A stretch of DNA of 64,000 nucleotides, taken from contig NZ_CP024808.1 of NCBI RefSeq assembly GCF_002787055.1, positions 124,001-188,000 on the forward strand, read 5' to 3'. The notes beneath the pieces were generated by a model. The model searched no databases. It was not told the DNA's origin and saw only the letters and a list, made by a program, of their open reading frames with translations. A program made the position numbers and the translations under genes. Source of the DNA: Candidatus Nitrosotenuis aquarius (lineage in GTDB: Archaea > Thermoproteota > Nitrososphaeria > Nitrososphaerales > Nitrosopumilaceae). This document shows, one piece after another, positions 48,970 to 50,617 of the stretch. The first letter of the stretch is position 1, and every line of letters starts with the position of its first letter.

Positions 48970-49377
48970 TTGCAAAATCATTATCATCGTTTGAGCTCCC
49001 TGAAAACAAGAGAAAAAACCGAATTTGAGTTGTTGCTAACTGGCGAGGATTTTTCTGGGTTTAATTCTGATACGTATGATTTATCAAAAATTCTGGATCA
49101 AAAACTGGCTAGTGCTATTAATGGCGAGATTAATTCCATAATGGGCAAAAATTCTAACCTGCAAGCAATACCCGTATTGCAGAATCTTTGCTCCAAGATC
49201 CCCTCTACCATATTTACAAAATACGAGCGTGCAGGCAAAAACTATGTCACAATAGAGCACAAGTTGGGCGATTCCGGCAACGTGTTCTTTAGCGAATTAT
49301 TCACAAGATCTATTCGTGCATCTGATCATCATACGGTATCCGGGCAAAATAAAATCTGCTTTATTTTCAGACAGTAA
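48970..49377 (+). CDS. Hypothetical protein, 135 aa
   Basis: A 135-residue soluble protein with no recognised family (…LSKILDQKLASAINGEINSIMGKNSNLQAIPVLQNLC, then SNVFFSEL-like regions). A TATA-like CTTTAAAT at 48909-48916 would start transcription near 48940, so a short leader is likely. The start could be the TTG at 48970 or the TTG at 48991. An intrinsic-terminator-like hairpin follows at 49390-49406. It lies within the sensory island between the kinase and the soluble MCP-like gene. Confidence 0.6.
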   Translation: MQNHYHRLSSLKTREKTEFELLLTGEDFSGFNSDTYDLSKILDQKLASAINGEINSIMGKNSNLQAIPVLQNLCSKIPSTIFTKYERAGKNYVTIEHKLGDSGNVFFSELFTRSIRASDHHTVSGQNKICFIFRQ

Positions 49378-49498: not shown

Positions 49499-50617
49499 TT
49501 GGGTAGCGTAAAATCCAAAGATATGTCCACCACGCAAATCCAGCAGGGAAAAAAATTCACACTAGAGGAAGTAGTCGAGTTTATTGATCTGATTGCAGAA
49601 AAGCTAAATTCTGCAATAGACAAAGTAGATGATGTCAATCATAAGACACATGTTTTGTCAGTTAATGCGTCAATAGAGGCCGCCCGTGCAGGAACATACG
49701 GCAGGCCGTTTGGGATAGTTGCAACAAACATGAGTGAGCTATCTGAAGAGACATCCAAAATCACCGACAATATGAGAAAAGACACCAAGGAAATCATCAA
49801 TGTGGGCAACATGATAAAGACACAGTCAAAGGAATTCCGTGGAAACAGACTCACTGATTTGGCGCTAGTAAACATTGACCTAATAGACAGGAATCTCTAC
49901 GAGAGAACCGCAGATGTTCGATGGTGGGCAACGGACTCAAATGTAATAGATGCATTGACAAAAAAGAACCAGGATGCATGCGATGTCGCATCAAAAAGGC
50001 TTGGAGTCATCTTGCAGGCATATACTGTTTATTATGATCTGGTAATTGCCGATGTTTCAGGAAATATAGTATCTAATGGAAATCCAGAAAAGTTTCCGTC
50101 ACGCGGTCTTAATGTTTCTGATTCTAGATGGTTTGTCTCTGCAATGAATACAAAAAATTCTGGACAGTTTGGCTTTGAGTCGGTCCACCGCTCAAGCCTT
50201 GTATCAAATAATTTATGCTTGATTTATTCTGCGGCAGTCCGGGAAAATGGCGACCCGAAGGGCCAAATAATTGGAGTCTTGGGGGTTATCTTCAAGTGGG
50301 AGTCGCTTGCCCAAACGGTGATTGTACACACTCCTATTTCTGAGGACGAAAAGAAAAACACCCGAATCTGTATTGTGGATGACTCTGGATTGATTCTGGC
50401 AGACTCTGATGGCAAAATGCTCCGAGACAGCCTTGACTTTGATCAAAAAACCAGCCTGCTATCGGAGAAGAAAAACCACATCTTCATCGAATATTGCGGC
50501 CTGAATTGTTGCATTGCGCATGCACTGTCGCCAGGATTTGAAGGGTATTCTACCGGCTGGCATTCTATAATAATTCAGAAGCTTGGCACTGCCAAAAAGG
50601 CAAAGCTAGTCAAATAG
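49499..50617 (+). CDS. Soluble chemoreceptor-like protein: N-terminal MCP hairpin tip plus C-terminal Cache-like domain
   Basis: A 372-residue protein with no transmembrane helix. Residues about 20-110 contain the MCP tip-like sequence VNHKTHVLSVNASIEAARAGTYGRPFGIVATNMSELSEETSKI. Residues about 120-355 form a Cache/PAS-like sensor (DIDLIDRNLYERTADVRWWATDS, IADVSGNIVSNG, RWFVSAMNTKNSG). The signalling part precedes the sensor, the reverse of a normal MCP, and the coiled coil is short. The start may be TTG 49499 or ATG 49523. Part of the sequence (CCIAHALSPG) holds unusual cysteines. Confidence 0.8.
   Translation: MGSVKSKDMSTTQIQQGKKFTLEEVVEFIDLIAEKLNSAIDKVDDVNHKTHVLSVNASIEAARAGTYGRPFGIVATNMSELSEETSKITDNMRKDTKEIINVGNMIKTQSKEFRGNRLTDLALVNIDLIDRNLYERTADVRWWATDSNVIDALTKKNQDACDVASKRLGVILQAYTVYYDLVIADVSGNIVSNGNPEKFPSRGLNVSDSRWFVSAMNTKNSGQFGFESVHRSSLVSNNLCLIYSAAVRENGDPKGQIIGVLGVIFKWESLAQTVIVHTPISEDEKKNTRICIVDDSGLILADSDGKMLRDSLDFDQKTSLLSEKKNHIFIEYCGLNCCIAHALSPGFEGYSTGWHSIIIQKLGTAKKAKLVK

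Follow-up and report, generated by a model that had tools for sequence, protein, structure and literature searches.

The window analysed here, a stretch of 64,000 nucleotides from the archaeal, single-contig genome (1.70 Mb) of Candidatus Nitrosotenuis aquarius, encodes a soluble protein in which the signalling tip of a methyl-accepting chemotaxis protein (MCP) precedes a double Cache (dCache) sensor. As far as searched, this tip-dCache protein represents an overlooked family and not a one-off. It is probably a receptor of the cytosol that does not adapt and that informs the shared CheA of an internal state by way of the first helix of the Cache domain (alpha-1) and the tip. What is new here is the near-universality of the family among the sampled chemotactic archaea of this taxonomic order, along with the occurrence of fused forms.

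Gene, domain content and neighbourhood

The gene was recognized from the list of open reading frames and from Pfam (Table 1). The listed frame opens at a TTG codon (49499) that adds 8 residues, but the ATG at 49523 is most likely the true start, since a valine codon (a GTG-type start, read as V) occupies this position in all four relatives compared and the sequence upstream of it bears no likeness to any of the four. The gene is under strong purifying selection, with a dN/dS of 0.028 in comparison with a relative of 95% identity and of 0.045 with one of 87% identity, and of 0.017 and 0.058, in the same sequence, over the hairpin alone. Both relatives are open throughout which, together with the low dN/dS, rules out a frameshift or gene-fusion artefact, a concern raised in the preliminary description of this DNA.

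Table 1. The tip-dCache locus and its neighbours in window coordinates, with residues counted from the ATG start
Feature	Position	Strand	Basis
Transmembrane chemoreceptor, dCache_1-HAMP-MCPsignal, 715 aa	44990..47137	-	Pfam
Histidine kinase, HAMP-HisKA-HATPase, 498 aa	47256..48752	+	Pfam
tip-dCache receptor gene, 364 aa	49523..50617	+	Open reading frame, Pfam; start common to four relatives, dN/dS 0.028-0.045
Predicted MCP tip hairpin, residues 12-104 (about Tsr 345-437)	49556..49834	+	Pfam MCPsignal; superposition of the residue 1-112 model
Tip core, residues 48-63	49664..49711	+	Conservation counts over 91 homolog rows
Junction and dCache helix alpha-1, residues 105-136	49835..49930	+	Conservation of 95% or more at 11 of 32 positions
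Double Cache domain, residues 101-356	49823..50590	+	Pfam dCache_1; model compared with 3by9_B
Stand-alone receiver protein, 121 aa	50685..51050	+	Pfam Response_reg

Both domains exceed their Pfam cut-offs. The MCPsignal family (PF00015) matches residues 15-100 in the numbering from the TTG with 48.1 bits where 34.6 are required (E 1.6e-12), albeit over just 88 of the 172 profile positions, and the dCache_1 family (PF02743) reaches 47.2 bits over residues 129-326 in the same numbering, its cut-off being 45 (E 2.7e-12). The tip motif SVNASIEAARAG thus stands N-terminal to the Cache domain, in the reversed order that had been proposed from the sequence, and the N-terminal part is recognized as an MCP by the profile search itself. 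HAMP and CheW (PF01584) domains are both absent among the four Pfam families found up to E 10, and no membrane helix is apparent, the highest 19-residue Kyte-Doolittle mean being 1.51 compared to 2.75 in the adjoining transmembrane MCP. With neither a membrane anchor nor a HAMP domain, the double Cache would be cytosolic, and this part of the preliminary description has stood up well. The methylation motif [ASTG]xx[EQ][EQ]xx[ASTG] does not occur anywhere in the protein, while loose motifs of this type number five and seven in the two other MCPs of the genome (five in that of the window). Both the methylation region and the flexible bundle of a conventional receptor are missing from the sequence.

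This absence, together with an archaeal tip that departs from the consensus at several positions, could be taken to describe a common soluble MCP in decay after truncation, a reading so improbable as to be hardly credible. It is refuted by the selection test (dN/dS of 0.028-0.045), and the same order and similar lengths are conserved across two domains of life.

The transmembrane MCP of the window is a likely array partner of the tip-dCache protein. The neighbouring histidine kinase also adjoins the tip-dCache gene of another genome (G009; L055). Just upstream of the receptor gene lies a frame of 135 residues (48970-49377) without a Pfam family. A matching frame occurs in G009, and one of weak similarity in G168. 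The three CheW matches of the window's genome are all located at 1.364-1.370 Mb. Its che cluster comprises archaellum genes, CheW, CheB, CheA, CheC/X, CheD, CheR, a second CheW, CheY and CheC (L040), and the tip-dCache gene stands away from it, beside the MCP, histidine kinase and receiver protein of Table 1.

The signalling tip and the double Cache domain

Structural models were obtained with AlphaFold2 as monomers from 8-row alignments, and Tsr numbering is reached by adding 333 to the residue numbers of the protein. Residues 1-112 modelled alone (pLDDT 86.4) superpose on residues 103-199 of 3g67_B over 97 residues at 1.2 Å (Z 12.3, where values under about 13 are not unusual for helical bundles, such that the hairpin assignment leans on the sequence match too) and on residues 345-440 of Tsr (1qu7_B) over 96 residues at 1.6 Å. 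The best 14 rows of a Foldseek search with this model are all MCP chains, and the VIA-align lists re-examine what Foldseek had matched and cover those families only. The profile match of the hairpin to MCP tips reaches E 3.6e-18. Because DSSP assigns the model a single unbroken helix, the hairpin is deduced from the superposition and the profile match. As predicted from sequence and model, it is the protein-interaction (kinase-control) tip of an MCP alone, comprised of about 93 residues or some 6-7 heptads per arm.

The core of this tip is formed by N48, E52, R55, G57, G60 and F63, equivalent to Tsr N381, E385, R388, G390, G393 and F396. Residues were counted over 91 rows (32 archaeal single copies, 10 first and 10 second halves of fused proteins, and 39 bacterial members), in which the equivalents of E385 (E52), R388 (R55) and F396 (F63) are kept in 89, 82 and all 91 rows, respectively. 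These three residues are trimer contacts of Tsr (PMC8144572), and Cassidy et al. modelled the trimer of dimers with Tsr 340-441 (PMC6954272). The earlier suggestion that the MCP segment is too short for a trimer of dimers consequently finds no support, given that the hairpin matches the Tsr 345-440 stretch and keeps the trimer contacts in 82-91 of the 91 rows.

The residues that face CheW have fared differently. Receptor contacts with CheW involve the pairs R40-E402, D107-R404 and E18-R394, and E402 and R404 are critical for the kinase-on state (Cassidy et al., PMC6954272). The window protein presents N69 and S71 at the positions of E402 and R404; in the archaeal single copies the former is Glu in 5/32 and the latter Arg or Lys in 0/32, compared to 13/13 for each among the distinct tips of full-length MCPs fetched from the same archaeal order. 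Archaeal tip-dCache proteins have thus lost the CheW-contact pair and kept the trimer-contact residues, and direct binding of CheW or activation of the kinase is doubtful for this reason.

This loss makes a serious rival of the view that the archaeal protein enters trimers with full-length receptors without touching CheW itself, its Cache state shifting the kinase output of its neighbours. It would then be a silent modulator of the array and not a stand-alone receptor controlling a kinase, which we regard as possible but a good deal less probable than the receptor model given at the outset. The R40 equivalent is indeed retained in CheW1 of ammonia-oxidizing archaea, as seen by alignment. The bacterial relatives, however, largely keep E402 (32/39) and Arg or Lys at 404 (25/39), and loss of the pair is therefore no property of the family. 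In addition, D107 of CheW is conserved neither in CheW1 of these archaea nor in Thermotoga maritima by the same alignment, such that contacts established for E. coli may not apply here, and receptors so unequal in length may not mix.

The sensor half is modelled as a double Cache domain in the full-length prediction (pLDDT 84.1, pTM 0.72, 8 sequences), and its closest structure is the sensor of Vibrio cholerae DctB (3by9_B; Z 22.6, 2.3 Å over 226 residues). In the model, the return arm of the hairpin continues directly into alpha-1 of the Cache domain. This junction together with helix alpha-1 (residues 105-136) carries the signature DRNLYERxxDVRWWA, and nowhere else in the protein is conservation as dense across the archaeal and bacterial rows. 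In three bacterial members scanned, the dCache_1 match falls under the cut-off, at 28-43 bits.

The dCache motif of amino-acid sensors includes an Arg two residues before a conserved Trp, equivalent to R126 of PctA. The window protein has S201 at this position, which speaks against amino-acid sensing through the known motif. The Arg is present in 3/32 archaeal single copies and absent from most rows, and the Trp (Trp203) is found in 91/91.

Distribution, bacterial relatives and fused doubles

The same architecture was sought in 300 genomes of the archaeal order, taking E below 1e-50 as a strong full-length match. The order includes Candidatus Nitrosocaldus, and by this kinship the host of the window is an ammonia-oxidizing archaeon. 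Any match is found in 49 genomes and a strong one in 43, with CheW present in 48. Strong carriers make up 43/48 of the CheW genomes versus 0/252 of those without CheW, counts that are not independent as the genomes are kin to one another. By genus, the gene occurs in 9 and CheW in 10 of 64. Five CheW genomes have no strong match (G171, G202, G267, G271 and G292), and one genome without a CheW match (G150) retains a decayed remnant, only the end of a second half with a stop codon, as would be expected for joint loss.

By match coordinates, the gene lies 3 kb or less from a CheW-family match in 25/43 strong carriers. In the genus of the window, it is not within 3 kb of CheW in 8/10 strong carriers, the window's genome included. 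It stands in or beside che or archaellum clusters in eight genomes (G051, G001, G047, G086, G083, G056, G162 and G022), and likewise in Nitrosocaldus sp. SKYG19. In G162 (L054, 11577-16018), three frames of 230 residues with near-identical N-termini and a fourth similar one, presumably archaellins, lie upstream of the archaellum genes. In G071, roughly 1.1 kb separates the tip-dCache gene from a weak CheW-like gene (E 8.7e-10; G071:C24:35335-35691; L059 7273-7743), which lies off the contig that bears the CheA-sized CheW match.

Full-length homologs in Pseudomonadota and Planctomycetota rule out an invention specific to archaea. The gene occurs in nine Pseudomonadota plasmid records, where 80-96% of the query aligns at 33-35% identity, and matches at E 1e-25 are present in 30/398 sampled genomes of the phylum of the Azospirillum locus and in 7/199 of the phylum of the Kuenenia locus (Planctomycetota). 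A scan of genome contigs yields at least seven full-length relatives (L066-L072) among 80 loci listed, in a list dominated by ordinary MCP tips. CheW is present in 37/37 bacterial carriers, but is common in such genomes anyway. The gene lies within 4 kb of CheW-family matches in G472, one of them in a CheA-sized frame, and the annotated or gene-called bacterial neighbourhoods are mostly not linked to che genes.

The homolog in a Kuenenia hertensis MAG (L066; SOET01000026.1, 60-17475) has a PAS/GAF hybrid kinase on one side and a receiver protein on the other. It is part of a run that also comprises four ammonium transporters and several PII-type proteins, two of the latter assigned by Pfam and a third PII-like frame by its N-terminal sequence. 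Archaeal contamination is ruled out by the contig content, ammonium transporters and PII, and by a branch that sits beside the archaeal group and not within it. This context, taken with the ammonia-oxidizing hosts of the archaeal proteins, suggests a ligand related to nitrogen status, as a lead only.

Two of the seven planctomycetotal genomes (G796 and G815; L180-L182) bear the Cache signature in long open frames, of 834-1011 residues by the genome search and 814-819 within the fetched stretches. Pfam finds no significant MCP domain in these three proteins. Each contains two copies of RNLxERxxDxRWW, and between them lies LISLNGIVFASKLGKRGVALGPIF, which looks like a worn-down MCP tip and is left unscored by Pfam.

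Such proteins, carrying the Cache signature without a significant MCP domain, would fit a hairpin that is a mere dimerising helical module and passes its signal to another partner, such as a neighbouring kinase or receiver, and not to CheA. The position of both the window gene and the Kuenenia gene between a kinase and a receiver protein would fit as well. The reading is nonetheless unlikely: the trimer-contact residues of the tip are kept in archaea and bacteria alike, presence of the gene tracks CheW in the archaeal order, and the neighbouring kinase and receiver are not common to most archaeal neighbourhoods.

Tandem fusions of the form MCP-dCache-MCP-dCache (715-745 residues) occur at ten loci in nine genomes, in relatives of one genus-level group. 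In a tree of 81 rows built by a quick method, with nine of the ten fused loci included, all 50 archaeal rows fall together (SH-aLRT 95), the Kuenenia protein branches next to them, and the other bacterial rows lie outside. The first halves of the fused proteins form one group and the second halves another (support 100 each). Two adjacent, separate tip-dCache genes lie between ArlJ and an MCP in G051 (L042, 8182-10464), where the upstream copy groups with the first halves (99) and the downstream copy with the second halves (95), indicating that a tandem pair fused in the same order and that the G051 pair is, as judged by this grouping, the unfused ancestor state. The N381 position is Thr in 10/10 first halves and Asn in 10/10 second halves, and the fused doubles are, by their sequences, putative natural single-chain pseudo-heterodimers. 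A more tentative proposal still, slightly less probable than the array modulator itself, is that the protein of ammonia-oxidizing archaea is a non-methylated silent partner feeding an intracellular metabolic signal into the arrays of other receptors without adaptation, and that in the fused forms the two hairpins are no longer equivalent, such that one would be committed to the trimer axis and the other to the baseplate.

Proposed function and comparison with known systems

In the favoured model of a cytosolic receptor acting on CheA, two chains would form a dimer by way of the dCache helix and the hairpin, and binding of a small internal metabolite to the Cache domain would alter the first dCache helix. 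This change would be relayed straight up into the tip, with output through the N-terminal helix and not a C-terminal strand, a natural inference for a protein with a free C-terminus whose sensor is joined covalently to the tip by alpha-1 alone. The tip would then join trimers of dimers with full-length receptors sharing CheA and CheW, and these mixed trimers would bias the kinase that controls the archaellum. Lacking methylation sites, the receptor would signal the absolute level of an internal state without adapting to it, in a genome that also has CheR, CheB and CheD. In the genus-level group, the two chains would have been turned into one fused chain with two different halves.

In the literature examined, chemotaxis of ammonia-oxidizing archaea is known only from gene lists, such as the che genes and putative MCPs catalogued in reports on their genomes (PMC3835317). 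As 43 of the 48 chemotaxis-bearing genomes among the 300 carry the family, its ligand would be a direct handle on what these archaea steer by. The protein is also a receptor reduced by nature to its minimum, with a kinase-control tip attached to a sensor and nothing in between, which isolates how the tip is switched, and the fused forms are ready-made asymmetric dimers for asking whether two hairpins do different jobs.

No published account of the family was found in the open-licence literature by titles and abstract openings, a text search with the signature motif returned unrelated papers only, and NCBIfam holds no model spanning the whole protein. MtpA of Methylobacterium, a cytosolic MCP involved in formaldehyde taxis (PMC10613068; PMC12202990), was set aside as a characterised member on its description, only an MCP domain being found by Pfam at E 0.001; two bacterial tip-dCache members give dCache_1 matches at E 4.6e-07 and 1.8e-06.

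Proteobacterial proteins of about 345 residues annotated as methyl-accepting chemotaxis proteins (WP_060148510.1, WP_318784668.1) belong to the same family, with a full-length match and the same order and signature, but keep the CheW-contact pair more often and are mostly not beside che genes. CheV and CheW adaptors are soluble partners of the receptor tip. The tip-dCache protein differs from them in having no CheW domain, and this, along with the same architecture in Pseudomonadota and Planctomycetota, weakens the initial proposal of a new type of signalling adaptor.

Closer parallels are the soluble MCPs of topology IV or class V (PF00015), which likewise have a tip hairpin with trimer contacts, no membrane helix, and CheA and CheW present, whereas the tip-dCache protein has a hairpin of only about 93 residues, no methylation region or flexible bundle, and its sensor placed after the signalling part. 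A survey of archaeal receptors describes cytoplasmic forms, some with a C-terminal ligand-binding domain, and as far as examined it names neither a Cache domain C-terminal to the tip nor a tip-dCache family (PMC9680633). Cache families are principally extracellular apart from two small ones, and those anchored in the membrane have an alpha-1 that prolongs the first membrane helix, with output by the C-terminal membrane helix (Upadhyay et al., PMC4822843). The dCache_1 sensors DctB (3by9), PctA and Tlp3 share with the tip-dCache protein the double Cache fold and long first helix, but the latter is predicted to be cytosolic, its alpha-1 is continuous with an MCP hairpin and not with a membrane helix, and its chain ends after the second module.
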